DNA of 41,456 nt. Origin: Bacillota bacterium (GTDB taxonomy: Bacteria; Bacillota; Dethiobacteria; DTU022). Below the pieces are notes generated by a model. That model was not told the DNA's origin. It worked only from the letters and a program-made list of their open reading frames with translations, and did not search any database. The first letter of the stretch is position 1, and each line of letters opens with the position of its first letter. Position numbers and translations under genes: made by a program. Location: NCBI GenBank assembly GCA_018400435.1, contig JAGYMW010000010.1, forward strand, positions 1 to 41,456, written 5' to 3'. This document shows positions 6,036-41,456 of this stretch, piece by piece.

Positions 6036-6566
6036 ATGACAATGATCTTGCAACTTCTTATTCCTTACTTTATTCTGGCAGCAGTGATTTTTGGGTACAT
6101 TTACTACCGTTACCTCAAGCTCGGACCTGTCCTGTACAGGGTTAATAGGGCTCTTTTCGTGAAGCAAAACTTCGATTCATTGGTGCTTATTATTATTCTT
6201 GCCGTGGCATCATACTTTTTGATCCGCTATGAGCTGAATAATATAAAAGTTGTAGAAGAAGAACTGCCTTTCTCTTTCTACTTTAATATGATCTTTTACA
6301 TTGTTCTGCTCATTGCTGTTGTGGCCAGGGAGGTTGAGAAACCTACACTGCGTGAAAAAGGTATTGCCTCTTCCCGCGGTTTGTGGAACTGGCAGGAGAT
6401 AGGATCTTATCGCTGGTCCGGCCGTAACTTGATTGTCAATATCAAGCGTGGCAATAAAACCCGCTCTGAAATATGGTTGGTTGGTCCGATTGAAAAAAAG
6501 AATATTGCCCTGATCTTGAAAGATAAGTGCCCCCTCCGGTCGAAACGATCACGAAAGAAGATTTAA
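6036..6566 (+). CDS. Small membrane protein, possibly DUF5673
   Basis: A 176-residue protein with three predicted membrane segments at roughly residues 7-27, 46-66 and 80-97, followed by a soluble C-terminal part of about 75 residues. That part contains GLWNWQEIGSYRW and NLIVNIKRGNKTRSEIW, resembling the cytosolic PH-like portion of DUF5673 proteins; the assignment is tentative. The C-terminus is very basic (RSKRSRKKI). The ATG at 6036 follows AAGGAGG. It sits alone between the lipoprotein gene and gyrA. No function is proposed. Confidence 0.7.
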   Translation: MTMILQLLIPYFILAAVIFGYIYYRYLKLGPVLYRVNRALFVKQNFDSLVLIIILAVASYFLIRYELNNIKVVEEELPFSFYFNMIFYIVLLIAVVAREVEKPTLREKGIASSRGLWNWQEIGSYRWSGRNLIVNIKRGNKTRSEIWLVGPIEKKNIALILKDKCPLRSKRSRKKI

Positions 6567-34179: not shown

Positions 34180-34266
34180 GGAGGGGTGTCCGAGCGGTTT
34201 AAGGAGCTAGTCTTGAAAACTAGTGACCCGAAAGGGCCGTGGGTTCGAATCCCACCCCCTCCGCCA
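34180..34266 (+). tRNA. tRNA-Ser(UGA)
   Basis: An 87-base cloverleaf with encoded CCA. The acceptor stem GGAGGGG pairs with CCCCTCC, the discriminator is G, and the anticodon arm CTAGT-CTTGAAA-ACTAG gives anticodon TGA. A long variable arm (GACCCGAAAGGGCC) marks a class II tRNA as expected for serine. The T arm GTGGG-TTCGAAT-CCCAC is perfect. Confidence 0.96.
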
Positions 34267-34277
34267 GAAGAGAGTAC

Positions 34278-34371
34278 GGAGAGATGGCCGAGAGGTCGAA
34301 GGCGGTCGCCTGCTAAGCGATTAAGTGGGTAAAAGCCTGCTTCGAGGGTTCGAATCCCTCTCTCTCCGCCA
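34278..34371 (+). tRNA. tRNA-Ser(GCU)
   Basis: A 94-base class II tRNA with encoded CCA. The acceptor stem GGAGAGA pairs with TCTCTCC, with G as discriminator. The anticodon arm GTCGC-CTGCTAA-GCGAT gives anticodon GCT (one G-U pair), and a long variable arm follows. The T arm is GAGGG-TTCGAAT-CCCTC. It lies 11 bases after tRNA-Ser(UGA). Confidence 0.96.
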
Positions 34372-34374
34372 TAT

Positions 34375-34452
34375 GCGCCCGTAGCTCAGTCCGGATAGAG
34401 TAACTGACTACGAATCAGGAGGTCGCAGGTTCAAATCCTGCCGGGCGCACCA
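34375..34452 (+). tRNA. tRNA-Arg(ACG)
   Basis: A 78-base tRNA with encoded CCA. The acceptor stem GCGCCCG pairs with CGGGCGC; the T arm GCAGG-TTCAAAT-CCTGC is perfect. The anticodon loop CTACGAA gives ACG, to be deaminated to ICG. The top pair of the anticodon stem is an A-G mismatch (base 29 with 45 of the gene); D-stem has one G-U pair. The 3' part from the third anticodon base (34412) is duplicated at 41191, so this gene is the probable integration site of the downstream segment. Confidence 0.93.
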
Positions 34453-34512
34453 GTAGAATAAGGGGTTTTGAGCTTCCACGAAGAGTAAGAAGGAGCCAAA
34501 ACCCCTTTTGTA
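34412..34512 (+). repeat. Left copy of a 101-bp direct repeat (putative attL)
   Basis: Starts at the third anticodon base of tRNA-Arg, includes the tRNA 3' half, CCA and the tRNA-operon terminator, and ends with TTTTGTA. The copy at 41191-41291 has the same length and direction and differs at only two positions: GTAGAA versus GTAAAA, and TAAGAAGG versus TAAGTAGG. Flanking bases on both sides differ, so the boundaries are sharp. Confidence 0.9.
34460..34510 (+). terminator. Terminator of the tRNA cluster
   Basis: AAGGGGTTTTG (34460-34470) pairs with CAAAACCCCTT (34497-34507), extended by GCTTCC with GGAGC, followed by TTTT. An exact structural copy sits at 41239-41289 in the right repeat. Confidence 0.88.
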
Positions 34513-34585
34513 CACACTTTAAATAAACTAACAAGCATTAGAATTTAAAACTCCTTGTCATGGCAAGAAAAACTATAGGTGATAT

Positions 34586-34774
34586 ATGGCGAATAATGAA
34601 CACGAAAGAATGATAGAAATTCCATATAAATGGGTGAAAGAATATAATAGCTTAATGTATGACTATATAAAATCATTAGATACTAGTAAACTGTCAACTC
34701 TTAAACTGTGGGTAAAGTTTTTTCAATTTTATTCTGGCAGAATCAGTGGTAAATTGCCAGTCTATTGTTTTTAA
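34586..34774 (+). CDS. Small hypothetical ORF, possibly a truncated gene 5' end
   Basis: A 62-codon frame starting at ATG 34586 with AGGTGA upstream. The product (MANNEHERMIEIPYKWVKEYNSLM...) looks like a folded N-terminus, with LSTLKLWVKFFQFYSG in the middle, but matches no family I know. It stops 21 bases before the transposase remnant. It may be the 5' part of a gene interrupted by the IS insertion; another + strand fragment lies on the other side of the remnant (35499-35684). Confidence 0.4.
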   Translation: MANNEHERMIEIPYKWVKEYNSLMYDYIKSLDTSKLSTLKLWVKFFQFYSGRISGKLPVYCF

Positions 34775-34795
34775 ATTATCATTATGGTTAATCTC

Positions 34796-35498
34796 TCAAG
34801 CTGATAGTTCAGCACGAAGAGAAGTGATCGTTGCAATTCTGCGCCCCAAGCACTGCCTGGTCATGGCGCTCAGTTCTATCTCAGCGATATTTAAAAAGCT
34901 GCCATGTTTAGGCTTATAGTGTATCTCCAGTCGCTTAACTAGACTGCGTGCTATTTCTGGCGGAAAAGTTTCATAGAGAGACGAGATTGAATAGGTATTT
35001 AAGTTGTCCATCACCAACCGGATCTTTTTAGCTTCCGGATAATGAATATCCAGTAGTTCTCGAATTTGATTAGCCCAGTCAATTTTAGTTCTGCGTTCAC
35101 TTACACTCACATGTCACCAGCTGGACAGTAGTTCGGTAAAAACAAAGATACTGCAGGTTTCCTTGCGCACGTAGTCTCCATCTTGTTTTTCAGGAATTCC
35201 GGGCTTCATCGGAAGGGGAGACCTGAGGTCATCGAGCAGCTGATACTGCTTTTCATCCATGCAAACGACTGGATAGTTACCATCATAAGGTTGCTGATAT
35301 AGGTCAAGGACATCTGCCATACATGCGACAAAAGCAGCATTCTGCTTGGGTGGGATACACCAGCATTTACGTAGATGAGGCTTGAGTTCGCTTTTTTAAA
35401 AGGCGGCCCACCGTCTCATGGGAGATGCTTTCAATGAAATTTAGCTCTACGGCTTTATCAGCCAGAAGCCTTAGTGACCATCTAGACCTACCTTCAGG
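34796..35498 (-). pseudogene. Degenerate IS630-family transposase
   Basis: The reverse strand encodes most of an IS630-type DDE transposase in three pieces. The first piece (35498 downward: PEGRSRWSLRLLADKAVEL, then FIESISHETVGRLLKK) ends at a one-base frame change in an A6 run (forward 35392-35397). The second includes the first catalytic Asp in PVVCMDEKQ and ends at an in-frame TGA (35116-35114) after FVFTELLSSW. The third holds the second Asp (IRLVMDNLNTYSI) and the Glu (KHGSFLNIAEIELS). The N-terminal helix-turn-helix region and the last roughly 40 residues are missing. It cannot make an active enzyme. Confidence 0.85.
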
Positions 35499-35684
35499 GG
35501 GCAAGAGCATGAAGGAAAATTTGGAAAGTGGTTATCTGAACCTATTGAACCCTATTATACATTGCGAATTATGCCGGCGATATATTTGAGCTACGACCTG
35601 CCTGGTAATTATCCCACAGAGAAGCAGGCTGCAGAATATGTGGCAAAAATAGCTAAAGAAAAAGAAATTAAAGCAAGCAAATGA
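35499..35684 (+). pseudogene. C-terminal gene fragment abutting the IS630 remnant
   Basis: A + strand open frame without a start codon begins exactly where transposase similarity ends and runs 61 codons to TGA at 35682-35684. It reads GQEHEGKFGKWLSEPIEPYY and continues through TLRIMPAIYLSYDLPGNYPT to a lysine-rich helical end (AKIAKEKEIKASK). It has the look of real coding sequence but I do not recognise the family. It may be the 3' part of the gene whose 5' part lies at 34586-34774, split by the insertion. Confidence 0.5.
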
Positions 35685-35691
35685 GATAGAA

Positions 35692-35720
35692 TAGACTTAA
35701 TAGCACAACATTGTTATAAT
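35692..35720 (+). promoter_or_regulatory. Probable promoter upstream of the first c-di-GMP gene
   Basis: TAGACT (35692-35697) and a perfect TATAAT (35715-35720) with 17-base spacing; the -10 is preceded by TG at the extended position. The transcript would have a leader of about 180 bases before the ATG at 35907, containing the palindrome pair listed next. Confidence 0.6.
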
Positions 35721-35818
35721 TTAGATAGTTAACATAGTCCCTTAAGAACCCGAAGCACAAATCGGTGTATAGTTGTTCTGAGATTTTGACCTTGACGTCC
35801 ATACTACTGGAATGGTCA

Positions 35819-35852
35819 AAAAACGTTTCGGTTCCCGGATATAAACGTTTTT
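35819..35852 (+). promoter_or_regulatory. Paired AAACGTTT palindromes in the leader of the first c-di-GMP gene
   Basis: Two copies of the self-complementary octamer AAACGTTT (35821-35828 and 35843-35850) are 22 bases apart, about two helical turns. Together they also form a ten-base stem (AAAAACGTTT / AAACGTTTTT) that ends in a T run. The element may be an operator for a dimeric repressor or a weak attenuator hairpin; sequence alone does not decide. Confidence 0.4.
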
Positions 35853-35906
35853 AATAATTGTTGTAAAATAAAAATGTTTGAAGTCTCAAATTAGGAGGCA
35901 AACGGC

Positions 35907-38228
35907 ATGGGAAACGGAAAAGACAAATACCGCCTGCTGGTAGAGAACCTGCCCGACGCCTTTGCCTATCATCAACTGGTGGTAGATGAAAATGATAACC
36001 CAGTAGACTACATTTTTACAAAGGTAAATCCTTTCTTTGAAGAGATAACCGGGCTGAAAAAAGAAGATATCCTGGGCAAAAAGATTACCGAGGTCCTGCC
36101 TGACCTTAAGTTTTTTGATTTTGACTGGATTGGTGCTTACGAAAAGGTAGTGCGTACCGGGAAGAGCGTTCATTTCGAAGCTTTTTCAGAGCCGTTGGGC
36201 CGCTGGCACGAAGTTGTTGCCTTTAGTGACGGAAAAGGTTATTTCATTACAGTGTTCAAAGATGTGAATGAATTAATAATAGAAAACGAGACGACAAAAA
36301 AAATAATAGGTTATGTCAATAAATGCCAGGAATATTCAACTGATACATTGGATTACAACTTTTTCACAGATACTATTATGGAATTATCCGGAGCAATATT
36401 TGTTATTTTAAATTTAATTTCAGAAAAGGAGAAAAGCAAAACCGTTACCCAGGCCGTTTCCGGTTCTAATGGCAATCTTTCCTGGGTGAGAGAGCTGCTG
36501 GGTTTTGACCTGGAGGGAGCTGTGTGGGAAACAGACCATGAAAAAATGGGTGTTAGCAGTAAAAACGGTCTGGTTTATTACCCCTCCTTTTCCGATATCG
36601 ATAATTACAATTATTCTGCCCTGATACCGGTGCTAAAGAAGATAGAAAAATCCATGCGGCCCGTCAGCCTGTATGTTATGGAGATAAAATACCTGGGGGA
36701 ACCCTTTGGTGTTGTGACTTTGATTATGCCCAAAAACAAGGACATGGAAAATAAGGAGATGCTCGAGCTTTATATTAATTATTTAGCAACAACCATTAAG
36801 CGTCTTTGGTCAGAAAAATCGTTGAGGAAGTCGGAGGAACGTTACCAGGATCTGGTGGATAACATAAACGAAGCTATAATAGTTACCCAGGAAGGGATAA
36901 TAAAATATGTTAATTCCCAGGCAACCGAGCTTTCCGGTTATTCCAAAGAGAAAATGCTATATTCTTCCATAAACGATTATATTCATTCCCATGACCGGGA
37001 TATGGTTTTGACGAAACACCACCGGAGGATAGAAGGGGAAGAATTCGAAGCTCGCTACCAGTCCCGTGTAGTTAAAAAAAATGGGGATATCAGGTGGGTG
37101 GAGATAAGCGTGATGGCGACCGAATGGAACAACCAACTCGCTACCCTCAACCTGCTTTTGGATATTACCGAGCGAAAACAGGCAGAAGAAAAAATTCTTT
37201 TCTTGAGTTATTATGACCAGCTTACTGGTCTTTATAAACGTACTTTCATGGAAGTAGAGTTGCATCGGCTGGATAACAAGAAGCAGCTGCCCATCAGTAT
37301 CATAATGCTCGATCTCAACGGGCTGAAATTGGCAAACGAGACATATGGGAACGCTGTAGGAGATGACATGCTGAAGGGCACAGCAGATATTTTAAGAAAA
37401 TTCTCCAGGAAGGAAGATATTATCGCCCGCTGGGGTGGTGACGAGTTTGTTATTGTTTTACCACAAACCAAAGGAAAAGATGTAGCAGCTATAACCAAAA
37501 ATATAACTAAAATGTGTCGCGAGAATTTTATAAAAAATATCCCCCTTTCCGTAACAGCAGGTGCTGCTACGAAAAACAGAACGGACATTGCCCTGGCAGA
37601 AATTATAAAAGAAGCCGAAGGCGATATGTATAAAAACAAGCTTGTTGAGAGACAAAGTGAAAAATACAGGCTTCTGGGCGGTTTTTTAAAAACACTGGCC
37701 GAGAAAAGTTTTGAAACCGAAGCTCATGTGCAAAACATGCAAAGGGTAGCTATAAAAATTGGAGAGAAACTAAGACTCCCCGAAACCGAGCTTAGCCGTT
37801 TAAAATTACTGATAATGCTGCACGATATAGGCAAGATAAATATACCCGGAGAAATTTTAAAAAAGGAAAGTTCTTTATCGCCAGAGGAATGGGTGCTTGT
37901 GAAGCAACACCCGAAAACAGGTTACAAAATTGCACGCGCCGCAGAAGAGTTTGCCCACGTGGCTGAAGATATTCTTGCTCATCATGAACGCTGGGACGGA
38001 ACCGGCTACCCAAATGGATTAAAAGAGGAAGAGATACCTCTACTGGCAAGGATCACAGCTGTTGCCGATGCTTACGAGGTGATGACCAACGGCAGGCCTT
38101 ACAAAGAGGCCATGACCAAAGAAGAAATTGTTAAAGAGTTTAAAAGATGTGCCGGTAAACAGTTTGATCCGGAGCTGGTGAAAATTTTTTTATCGATTTT
38201 GGAGACAGAGATATTGTCAAAAGAATAA
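35907..38228 (+). CDS. PAS/GAF-like/PAS-GGDEF-HD-GYP bifunctional c-di-GMP protein
   Basis: A 773-residue soluble signalling protein with both synthesis and breakdown modules for cyclic di-GMP. Order: PAS (about 8-120), a divergent GAF-like sensor (about 135-310), a second PAS (about 315-430, ending LDITERKQAEEK), GGDEF (about 440-595) and HD-GYP (about 605-765). The cyclase has GGDEF at 510-514 and an RKED inhibitory-site motif five residues before it; the usual GH in the substrate loop is GN (TYGNAVGDD). The phosphodiesterase keeps HD at 639-640 and HHERWDGTGYPNGL (GYP 700-702). There are no membrane segments. AGGAGG precedes ATG 35907. Which activity dominates is unknown. Confidence 0.93.
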   Translation: MGNGKDKYRLLVENLPDAFAYHQLVVDENDNPVDYIFTKVNPFFEEITGLKKEDILGKKITEVLPDLKFFDFDWIGAYEKVVRTGKSVHFEAFSEPLGRWHEVVAFSDGKGYFITVFKDVNELIIENETTKKIIGYVNKCQEYSTDTLDYNFFTDTIMELSGAIFVILNLISEKEKSKTVTQAVSGSNGNLSWVRELLGFDLEGAVWETDHEKMGVSSKNGLVYYPSFSDIDNYNYSALIPVLKKIEKSMRPVSLYVMEIKYLGEPFGVVTLIMPKNKDMENKEMLELYINYLATTIKRLWSEKSLRKSEERYQDLVDNINEAIIVTQEGIIKYVNSQATELSGYSKEKMLYSSINDYIHSHDRDMVLTKHHRRIEGEEFEARYQSRVVKKNGDIRWVEISVMATEWNNQLATLNLLLDITERKQAEEKILFLSYYDQLTGLYKRTFMEVELHRLDNKKQLPISIIMLDLNGLKLANETYGNAVGDDMLKGTADILRKFSRKEDIIARWGGDEFVIVLPQTKGKDVAAITKNITKMCRENFIKNIPLSVTAGAATKNRTDIALAEIIKEAEGDMYKNKLVERQSEKYRLLGGFLKTLAEKSFETEAHVQNMQRVAIKIGEKLRLPETELSRLKLLIMLHDIGKINIPGEILKKESSLSPEEWVLVKQHPKTGYKIARAAEEFAHVAEDILAHHERWDGTGYPNGLKEEEIPLLARITAVADAYEVMTNGRPYKEAMTKEEIVKEFKRCAGKQFDPELVKIFLSILETEILSKE

Positions 38229-38305
38229 AGGTTATTATCTTTATCTTGTATTTACTTTAACAGGAACTACTTTGTTTCAGGGATTATCAATAAAAATAAT
38301 ACTCC

Positions 38306-38341
38306 ATGATATACCCTATGATATACCCTATGCCATACCCC
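38306..38341 (+). repeat. Three tandem 12-bp repeats between the two c-di-GMP genes
   Basis: Two perfect copies of ATGATATACCCT (38306-38317, 38318-38329) are followed by a degenerate third (ATGCCATACCCC). They lie 93 bases upstream of the second gene's start, in its likely promoter region, and could be a regulator-binding array. Confidence 0.65.
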
Positions 38342-38433
38342 ACCGAAGATCAGTAAATGGTAAGAAAGCCCCACTTTAAACCTTTTAATTGGGGGAAATT
38401 CATAGACTGTTTTTTAATCGGAGGTCGTCTGTT

Positions 38434-41118
38434 ATGTCCCACGATGAAAACCAAGTCGAATCCCAAAAAGAAGAGATTGCTACACTTAAAAATCTCTTAA
38501 GTGTCTCGGGAAAATTACTCCACATGTCGGCAGAATCAATTGACTACCAGGTAATAACCGATGGAATGAAGGAACTATCGGGTGCCTGGGTTGTCGGCAT
38601 AAACACTTATGAAGAAGGCGGTACTAAGAGCATTACCAGGGCCTTTAGCGGTTTTCCCTCTGCAATCAAGCAGGCATCAAAATTTCTCGGTTTTTCGCTT
38701 ACGGGCAAAAAATGGGATGTCATCCCTGAACGGGTGCGCAGTTTACAGGGAGGCAAACTTGTTCAATATAACAACCTCAATGAAACATCCATGGGTGCAA
38801 TATCCAAAAATGTAGCCCAAATACTGGAGCGCACCTTTAATATCGGCTATGTTTATGTTATTGATCTTTCCTACGAAGGAAGGGAATCGCTCGGTGATAT
38901 AATTTTCTTCATAAAAAAGGGTGAGAAGATCAAAAACAGGGAAGCAGTTGAAGTTTACGCTGGCTTGATCGGCAGCATATTAATGCGGGTTCGAACTGAA
39001 AAAGCATTACAGGAAAGCGAAGCCAAGTTCAGGACTTACATGGAAAAAGCTCCTCTCGGTGTTTTTGTGGCAAATATGGAAGGGCATTACCTGGAAGTAA
39101 ACCGGACAGCATGCCAGATGAGCGGTTACACAGAAGAAGAACTGTTGAACATGAGCATCCCAGACTTTCTTGCTCCGGAATTCCTGGAAAAAGGCATGAA
39201 CATGTTTAAAAATTTGCTGACAGAGGGTTATTTAGAAGATGAAATTATGGCACGCAAGAAGAACGGGCAAACTTATTGGATCAATTTAGCTACAGTAATA
39301 GTTGATAGCAATAGAATTATCGGTTATTGTCAGGACATCACCGAGCGCAAAGAAAATGAAGAGCGAATCAAGGAACTAAACTGCCTTCATAATTTTTCGC
39401 GACTGCTGCGCAAAGAAAAAATCAACCTGGAAAAAATACTGGAGGGAACCGTTAAGCTTTTGCCCTCCGCTTTTCAGTATCCCGAAGATGCGGGTGCTCA
39501 TATTACCTTTAAAGAACGTGAATTCAAAACACAGAACTACGAACAGACCCCCTGGATAATAGCTTCGACCTTGGAATTATACGGCAAACAAATTGGAAAC
39601 ATAGAAGTCTGTTACTATAAACCGCCTCTTCATGAGAAGGATCCTTTTATCAAAGAAGAGAAAATGGTGCTGGAAACATTAGCAGAGCATTTAAGTCGTG
39701 TTATTGAACAAATACAGATTGAAGAAAGCCTGCAAAAAAGCAATAATCAGCTCTCTATTACCTTACATTCTATCGGTGATGGTGTTGTTGTTACCGATGC
39801 CAGCGGGAAGATTACTCGCCTGAATCCCCGGGCAGAAAAACTCACCGGTTGGTCAGCAGAAGAGGCATTAGGCCGGGCCTTAACTGAAGTGCTTCATATT
39901 GTAAGTGCAAAAACCGGTGAACCGGTGCCTAACCCTGTGTACAGTGTGATTAAAACAGGAAGAACACAGGATCTGGCAAATGATACTATTCTTGTAGCTC
40001 GTGATGGCACGAGGCACCATATCGCCGACAGTGCAGCCCCCATTCGAGATCATGAAGATAAAATGTTCGGTGTGATCATGGTCTTTTCTGATATAACCAA
40101 GCGCAAAGATGCAGAAGATTCCTTGAAATACCAACTTAGATTTGAAAAGATGCTTGCCGAAATATCCAGCATTTTTGCAAGTTTGCCTTCAGATCAATTA
40201 GAACAAATTATTAACCATACCCTGGAACAGATCAGCGAGTTCTTTCAGGTTGAACGCAGCTATGTATTTCAGTTTTCTGATGATGGCAAGCAAATGAGCA
40301 ACACTTACGAATGGTGTGCAGATGGAATTAAACCGCAAATGGATAGGTTACAAGGATTACCTGTAGATATATTCCCCTGGTGGATAGAGCATATCAGAAA
40401 CAAAAAATATTTAAATATTCCTGATGTGGACAGCCTTCCACCCGAAGCAGAAACAGAAAAGAAAGAATTAAAGTCCCAGGATATACGTTCTCTTTTATCC
40501 ATATCATTGATGAAAAACGGCATTGTTTTTGGATTTCTTGGCCTTGACTCGATGAAGAAGAAAAAAGTGTGGACAGAAAATGATGTAATGCTTTTAAAAA
40601 TTGTAGCAGAATTATTATCAAATGCCTATACAAAAAACATTGCAGAAGAAAAGATACGATACCTGAGTTTTCACGACAGTCTCACAGGGCTTTACAACCG
40701 GGCCTACCTGGAAAAAGAAATGCAAAGGCTGGATACTGAAAGACAGCTGCCCATTGGGATTATTATGGCTGATTTAAACGGTCTTAAAAAGATTAACGAT
40801 ACTCTCGGACACTTAGTGGGAGACGATATGTTAAGGCAAACAGCCGAAATATTAAGAAGCTCTTGCCGCGGTGAGGATGTTATTTCCCGCTGGGGAGGGG
40901 ATGAATTTGTTATCTTTCTGCCGCAAACTACAGAAGAAGATGTAAAAACTATATGCCATAGAATAGATGAGAATTGCGATGCAACTTATACCAAAGACAT
41001 CCCTGTTTCCATGGCCTTGGGATATGCTATCAAGAACAGCTCCAAAAATGATCTTCTAGAAATATTTAAAGAGGCTGAAGAGAACATGTACATAGATAAA
41101 CTTGCTGACAGACAGTAG
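38434..41118 (+). CDS. Multi-sensor GGDEF diguanylate cyclase
   Basis: An 894-residue protein. ATG 38434 is chosen because CGGAGG lies just upstream; an earlier in-frame ATG has no such site. Order: a GAF-like sensor of the same type as in the preceding gene (about 15-190), PAS (about 195-310), GAF (about 315-430), PAS (about 435-560), GAF (about 565-720) and GGDEF (about 730-894). The cyclase looks active: DLNGLKKINDTLGHLVGDD, GGDEF at 821-825 and an RGED inhibitory-site motif. The protein stops at MYIDKLADRQ, precisely where the preceding homologue (MYKNKLVERQ) continues into HD-GYP. Its stop is 73 bases before the right direct repeat. Confidence 0.92.
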   Translation: MSHDENQVESQKEEIATLKNLLSVSGKLLHMSAESIDYQVITDGMKELSGAWVVGINTYEEGGTKSITRAFSGFPSAIKQASKFLGFSLTGKKWDVIPERVRSLQGGKLVQYNNLNETSMGAISKNVAQILERTFNIGYVYVIDLSYEGRESLGDIIFFIKKGEKIKNREAVEVYAGLIGSILMRVRTEKALQESEAKFRTYMEKAPLGVFVANMEGHYLEVNRTACQMSGYTEEELLNMSIPDFLAPEFLEKGMNMFKNLLTEGYLEDEIMARKKNGQTYWINLATVIVDSNRIIGYCQDITERKENEERIKELNCLHNFSRLLRKEKINLEKILEGTVKLLPSAFQYPEDAGAHITFKEREFKTQNYEQTPWIIASTLELYGKQIGNIEVCYYKPPLHEKDPFIKEEKMVLETLAEHLSRVIEQIQIEESLQKSNNQLSITLHSIGDGVVVTDASGKITRLNPRAEKLTGWSAEEALGRALTEVLHIVSAKTGEPVPNPVYSVIKTGRTQDLANDTILVARDGTRHHIADSAAPIRDHEDKMFGVIMVFSDITKRKDAEDSLKYQLRFEKMLAEISSIFASLPSDQLEQIINHTLEQISEFFQVERSYVFQFSDDGKQMSNTYEWCADGIKPQMDRLQGLPVDIFPWWIEHIRNKKYLNIPDVDSLPPEAETEKKELKSQDIRSLLSISLMKNGIVFGFLGLDSMKKKKVWTENDVMLLKIVAELLSNAYTKNIAEEKIRYLSFHDSLTGLYNRAYLEKEMQRLDTERQLPIGIIMADLNGLKKINDTLGHLVGDDMLRQTAEILRSSCRGEDVISRWGGDEFVIFLPQTTEEDVKTICHRIDENCDATYTKDIPVSMALGYAIKNSSKNDLLEIFKEAEENMYIDKLADRQ

Positions 41119-41190
41119 GCATATAGTTATTTGACATCGGGCTGATGGAATTATTTTCTCCATTTGTCCAGATTTAAAAGCAATAATACT

Positions 41191-41291
41191 GAATCAGGAG
41201 GTCGCAGGTTCAAATCCTGCCGGGCGCACCAGTAAAATAAGGGGTTTTGAGCTTCCACGAAGAGTAAGTAGGAGCCAAAACCCCTTTTGTA
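41191..41291 (+). repeat. Right copy of the 101-bp direct repeat (putative attR)
   Basis: An orphan 3' half of tRNA-Arg (GAATCAGGAGG through GCGCACCA) plus the tRNA terminator, 99 of 101 bases identical to 34412-34512. The 5' half of a tRNA is missing: the bases before 41191 do not pair with the acceptor or anticodon strands. After 41291 the sequence diverges from the left copy. Confidence 0.9.
41239..41289 (+). terminator. Second copy of the tRNA terminator
   Basis: The stem AAGGGGTTTTG / CAAAACCCCTT with a T tail, inside the right repeat. It probably terminates transcription of the upstream diguanylate cyclase gene. The remaining sequence to the window end (41292-41456) is AT-rich with no gene seen. 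Confidence 0.85.
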
Positions 41292-41456
41292 TTTTAGATA
41301 CACAATTTATGAATTTGAACCTCTACACAATTTGTATTCGAAAGCTCTAAAACATTTTTCCATTGCAGGTTTAAAAATGCTTAAAGTACACCCGGAATTA
41401 AGATAGTTCTTTACCATAAGCTATTTTCCCCTATCGATAACTTGATGTAGTCTTTT

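Follow-up and report, generated by a model that had tools for sequence, protein, structure and literature searches.

Cis-mobilizable elements (CIMEs) are islands which have lost their integration and transfer genes, keep their attachment (att) sites and stack by accretion. The first examples came from the vicinity of ICESt1 in Streptococcus thermophilus (reviewed in PMC5704250). In Dehalococcoides, 15 of the 31 islands at ssrA have no integration module, and cis-mobilization has been proposed for them (PMC3146451). Among integrases which target tRNA genes (tDNA), the anticodon loop is one of the common crossover subsites (Islander, PMC4383910). Furthermore, diguanylate cyclases are known cargo of the SXT/R391 integrative and conjugative elements (ICEs) and of the Vibrio trmA island VPII (PMC10672970). 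Here, we analyse a 6.8-kb block with two cyclic di-GMP (c-di-GMP) signalling genes, cdg1 and cdg2, located at tRNA-Arg(ACG) on contig JAGYMW010000010.1 of a Bacillota bacterium. This entire contig, 41,456 bases long, is referred to as the window. We consider it probable that the block (34412-41190) is an integrase-less, CIME-like unit at an accretion hotspot in the anticodon loop of tRNA-Arg(ACG).

The block is delimited by a 101-bp direct repeat (34412-34512 and 41191-41291) whose copies are 98% identical, far above chance expectation, and differ at two positions (34456, G/A; 34490, A/T). Just these two copies are present across the bacterium's own 1.97-Mb genome, a draft metagenome assembly of 137 contigs which is 87% complete. 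Both ARAGORN and Rfam report an intact tRNA-Arg(ACG) at 34375-34452. Its anticodon occupies 34410-34412 and therefore the repeat begins at the third anticodon base. The left copy comprises the tRNA 3′ half from this base, followed by a terminator; the right copy comprises tRNA positions 38-78 only, again followed by a terminator. The terminator hairpins after both copies are much stronger than those of shuffled sequences (z = -6.1 and -5.3). This geometry, with the right copy as an orphan 3′ half, had been described in the original prediction and its coordinates are confirmed. At the sequence level, att-like sites running from the anticodon loop onward are thus present at both ends of the unit. 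The site comprises the following features, where G numbers designate relatives and C numbers contigs:

34180-34266, plus strand: tRNA-Ser(TGA) (ARAGORN), conserved backbone left of the site; cluster present in most relatives
34278-34371, plus strand: tRNA-Ser(GCT) (ARAGORN), conserved backbone left of the site; cluster present in most relatives
34375-34452, plus strand: tRNA-Arg(ACG), intact, 3′ half restored by the left repeat; identical or near-identical tRNA in relatives
34412-34512, plus strand: left repeat, attL-like, tRNA 3′ half and terminator; terminator family 87% shared with G009, there beside other cargo
41191-41231, plus strand: right repeat, orphan tRNA-Arg 3′ half (attR-like, or attL of an adjoining unit)
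41232-41291, plus strand: right-repeat terminator, 97% identical to the left terminator
41292-41456, no strand: right flank to the contig end, not family backbone; 41397-41456 matches G005:C35:43539-43598

There is good support for integration at tRNA-Arg: relatives provide empty sites, the same breakpoint and an intact integrase-bearing element at the same point. Among the 59 relatives compared, the tRNA-Ser/tRNA-Ser/tRNA-Arg cluster is usually kept. The native backbone to the right of the site consists of a lipoprotein gene, a zinc-ribbon gene, tadA and tRNA-Ser(CGA). Two relatives (G012 and G016) have the empty site which the original prediction had proposed to look for, with tadA about 0.1-0.3 kb after tRNA-Arg. 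In G007, a 9.9-kb element (L042:2306-12155) lies between tRNA-Arg(ACG) and an orphan half, at the same insertion point as in the window, and the native lipoprotein/zinc-ribbon/tadA backbone resumes after this half. The element encodes a tyrosine integrase, an HTH_17 excisionase-like protein and restriction-modification-type proteins, and it carries AGTGCAACA arm repeats at both ends (four copies, flanking the ends, in L042).

In total, eight clear orphan halves were found (G000, G002, two in G003, two in G005, G007 and G020), with breakpoints at tRNA positions 32-39, within the anticodon loop. At least four further genomes have other cargo enclosed by such broken 3′ halves, nearly all of it without an integrase. 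The pair of cdg1 and cdg2 was found at the tRNA-Arg site in no relative whose site was readable, and the halves do not behave as a dispersed repeat unrelated to integration; neither of the outcomes named beforehand as contrary to an integrated element was seen. One assembly departs from the common arrangement: in G002 (L153, C17:1-400) the tRNA-Ser pair is not followed by a complete tRNA-Arg(ACG), and in the 97%-complete assembly none was found, just an orphan half.

Between its repeats, the window unit holds two intact c-di-GMP genes, a broken transposase relic of the insertion sequence (IS) family IS630, small fragments and a 62-aa open reading frame of no recognised family. No integration or transfer genes are present in this interval. 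As originally claimed, no recombinase lies between the repeats, and a family search found no Phage_integrase gene on the whole contig. The unit has neither the integrase nor the mobilisation genes of its own by which ICEs and integrative and mobilizable elements are recognised. Its contents are listed below:

34796-35320, minus strand: broken IS630-like transposase relic, with a DDE_3 part at 34796-35110 (Pfam E=1.3e-13) and a further piece at 35114-35320
35499-35684, plus strand: short open fragment without a Pfam match, which stops just ahead of the cdg1 upstream region
35692-35906, plus strand: cdg1 upstream region, left edge of the transferred cdg1 block, common to G027 (86%) and G004 (72%)
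35907-38228, plus strand: cdg1, PAS-GGDEF-HD-GYP, 773 aa; motifs GGDEF and HHERWDGTGYP both present
38434-41118, plus strand: cdg2, PAS/PAS/GAF/GGDEF, 894 aa from ATG 38434; the reading frame opens at TTG 38389

Copies related to the transposase relic are found in G052 and G020. The cargo, one synthase and one synthase/phosphodiesterase fusion, both with sensor domains, would probably alter c-di-GMP levels and would tune attachment or motility.

DNA identities indicate that cdg1 and cdg2 have both moved horizontally between genera, because the cargo is 78-91% identical to its counterparts whereas core genes of the window genome are 66-79% identical (21-34% different) to those of G004, G005, G020 and G009. 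For cdg1, identity reaches 90.6% with G004 and 89.2% with G027, where both copies lie at contig edges; its upstream homology with G027 extends over 212 bp at 86%. For cdg2, the values are 86.4% (G005), 82.9% (G020) and 78.7% (G008). These identities exceed those of every core gene tested save ilvN (79%), which is level with cdg2 of G008. When named genomes were scanned with cdg2, the sole close relative was the Bacillota metagenome-assembled genome KA22, on a contig matching C135 of G020. The gene pair of G008 lies near tmRNA and was considered as an ssrA island; a search for a repeated tmRNA end yielded none and this candidate was rejected.

Other cargo is shared between genomes as well. As the original prediction had suggested looking for, tRNA-Arg halves in relatives frame different genes, among them an encapsulin cassette and a TRAP/PaaK cassette, and both of these cargoes were found again in a second species. 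The EncFtn-encapsulin pair is framed by two halves in G003 and stands directly after tRNA-Arg, with the same terminator, in G028. This cassette of about 1.7 kb (L046:3835-5571 in G003; L057 in G028) is 93.5% identical across 1385 bp between these members of the same genus; in G003 the homology stops 11 bp ahead of the half, and in G028 it runs precisely to the end of the contig. The TRAP/PaaK cassette (a TRAP transporter, a PaaK-type ligase and a small gene) adjoins tRNA-Arg halves and is 89% identical across 5 kb between G005 (L041:3100-8497) and G002 (L045:11888-17150), which belong to different genera and whose gyrB genes are 75.9% identical. In G005, three further halves, one of them partial, stand in tandem behind tRNA-Arg. 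The stacked halves surround a DcuC transporter, an amidohydrolase and the TRAP/PaaK block, and no integrase is present.

This tandem arrangement bears on the right end of the window unit, where the contig continues for 165 bp past the second repeat. The original prediction had treated the layout as a single island between two repeats. Its integration part stands, whereas the native chromosome probably does not resume at the right copy, because the next 165 bp are not family backbone. They do not match contig C76, on which the native backbone of the own genome is located. In G005, the match to the last 60 bp of the flank adjoins a decayed tRNA-Arg half, and in G009 the terminator family of the window repeats precedes other cargo. 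It is likely that the block belongs, as one unit, to a tandem array, and that an adjoining, older unit of this kind begins with the right copy, which would then not be the native tRNA end. Tandem accretion is plain in G005; for the window, it is no more than suggested by the non-backbone sequence right of the second repeat. Contig C76 itself (L084, high-coordinate end) stops about 95 bp before the lipoprotein gene, in inverted-repeat sequence which is possibly an IS end.

The window unit starts with its own copy of the tRNA 3′ half and terminator, by which tRNA-Arg stays whole, and it ends at a second half; the other units seem to begin in the same manner. A tyrosine recombinase, either formerly encoded in cis and since lost or provided by another element in the cell, would recombine two tRNA-Arg halves within the anticodon loop. 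By such an exchange, units could enter the site, accumulate in tandem and be released jointly or one by one. The circular form of the window unit would join the right end ...AATACT to GAATCAGG and the left terminator. The window unit may by now be an immobile remnant, or a helper may still be able to move it.

The own genome was searched for a tyrosine recombinase with a matching site, as the original prediction had advised, and none fits tRNA-Arg(ACG). Its integrases comprise two Xer-like proteins encoded beside housekeeping genes, one beside leuA and one in a phage-like context with an attP matching tRNA-Arg(CCT); as helpers of the unit they were rejected. The last of these, on contig C125 (L121:90-375), is accompanied by repeats flanking a tRNA-Arg(CCT)-like 5′ half, and looks like an attP with a 5′ instead of a 3′ half. 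Relatives of the G007 integrase adjoin several different tRNAs and none adjoins integrase-free units. An exact search of viral contigs with the 37-bp tRNA half returned zero matches.

Several points weigh against a cis-mobilizable unit. No recombinase for tRNA-Arg(ACG) was identified in the 87%-complete own genome. Unlike in G007, arm-type repeats at the ends of the window unit are not above shuffles and the AGTGCAACA count in the window is 0. The copies of cdg1 and cdg2 in other genera do not adjoin tRNA-Arg halves, and the two genes may have come by another route and met at this site. All genomes compared appear to be draft assemblies, and contig C76, with the native backbone, is not joined to the window. 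We regard as a possible, though somewhat doubtful, alternative that an ordinary element with an integrase inserted at tRNA-Arg, was stripped of its integrase and mobility genes via deletion and IS activity, and is now a fixed, immobile scar with two surviving genes. The IS630-like relic and the gene fragments between the left repeat and cdg1, the lack of arm repeats, the two repeat mismatches and the failure to find an integrase for tRNA-Arg(ACG) are consistent with such decay. On the other hand, the repeats are still 98% identical and both cargo genes are intact. In addition, units without an integrase but with other cargo occur in several genera, and species or genera have cassettes in common at 89-93%, for which repeated independent decay is a less easy explanation.

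The same recurrence invites a bolder reading, which we judge unlikely. In a satellite or integron-like system, the cassettes would never have carried an integrase, the tRNA-Arg half would serve as their site and one recombinase acting in trans would shuffle them across the family. The units range from about 1.7 to 7 kb, have no integrase and consist mostly of complete genes for metabolism or signalling. Cassettes are common to species and genera, units are stacked in tandem in G005, and the halves of G005, G020 and G003 share a conserved upstream stretch which is promoter-like at its end (L043:1-127, 6144-6288; L041:9927-10230; L046:3686-3835). This stretch was considered as an element end and rejected: a second copy in G020, without a half, is located where a contig begins, ahead of a chromosomal gene, and the stretch may be a promoter region. 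Integron gene cassettes are defined by attC sites and an IntI integrase; the boundaries at the present site are tRNA halves. No dedicated trans-acting recombinase was identified, the G007 integrase relatives are not found beside integrase-free units, and the window unit is without the arm sites of the G007 integrase. That tRNA-Arg(ACG) 3′ halves form a cassette recombination site, at which integrase-free cassettes are stacked and exchanged between genera, integron-like, by a trans-acting recombinase, is accordingly put forward as an improbable proposal. The cassettes would then comprise c-di-GMP signalling, encapsulin, TRAP/PaaK uptake and transporters, each with a tRNA half and terminator. 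It is very unlikely that the right half arose by local duplication through unequal recombination, or that contigs were misjoined at the repeat. In favour of it, the own genome is a draft metagenome assembly, several relatives have contig breaks at tRNA-Arg and the window contig ends shortly past the repeat; against this, the same breakpoint is found in other genera (G007, G020), on long contigs where native backbone follows the half, and the junction sequences differ, as expected from separate insertions. Hardly credible is an ancestral position of the c-di-GMP genes with the tRNA half alone arriving later. Such genes are numerous in the family, but the pair is absent from the site in every relative with a readable site, and its identity across genera is higher than that of all tested core genes apart from ilvN.

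Taken as a cis-mobilizable unit, the block resembles CIMEs in its two att-like ends, the absence of integration and transfer genes and its location at a conserved gene, with tandem structures in relatives. It differs in that no related ICE occupies the same site in the own genome, units are as small as 1.7 kb, cassettes are shared across genera and mobilisation of the unit is putative. The Dehalococcoides ssrA islands, which together with the streptococcal CIMEs are the closest precedents, are likewise tandem and bounded by repeats of an RNA gene 3′ end. In contrast, they involve the T loop of ssrA and a serine recombinase, whereas the present site is the anticodon loop of tRNA-Arg, the sole candidate is a tyrosine recombinase and the cargo differs. 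With the tDNA islands of Islander, the window unit shares a restored tRNA at one end, a displaced 3′ fragment in the same orientation at the other and empty sites in relatives, although that definition demands an integrase gene inside (PMC4383910) and the window interval has none. The original prediction called the c-di-GMP cargo unusual, but it has precedents in the cyclases on SXT/R391 ICEs and VPII (PMC10672970); those are unrelated element types in unrelated hosts, and the window unit consists of nearly nothing but its two genes. The suggestion of a new minimal island type was not borne out either, as the unit by itself fits the known cis-mobilizable pattern. The more unusual part is the family-wide set of very small integrase-free cassettes, which departs from known CIME-type islands in its tRNA-Arg site, its very small units and its spread across genera.

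The comparison places an otherwise anonymous block of two genes at a landing site found across the family, where genes for signalling, metabolism and storage travel as passengers in small units. Were the trans-acting reading true, a tRNA-based cassette system would stand beside integrons; if false, the locus is a clear case of cis-mobilizable islands with c-di-GMP genes and defined ends in a little-studied lineage. A second tRNA-Arg island was observed in G020 (L127:884-3115), where a broken relative of the G007 integrase and a tRNA 3′ fragment come after tRNA-Arg(CCT).

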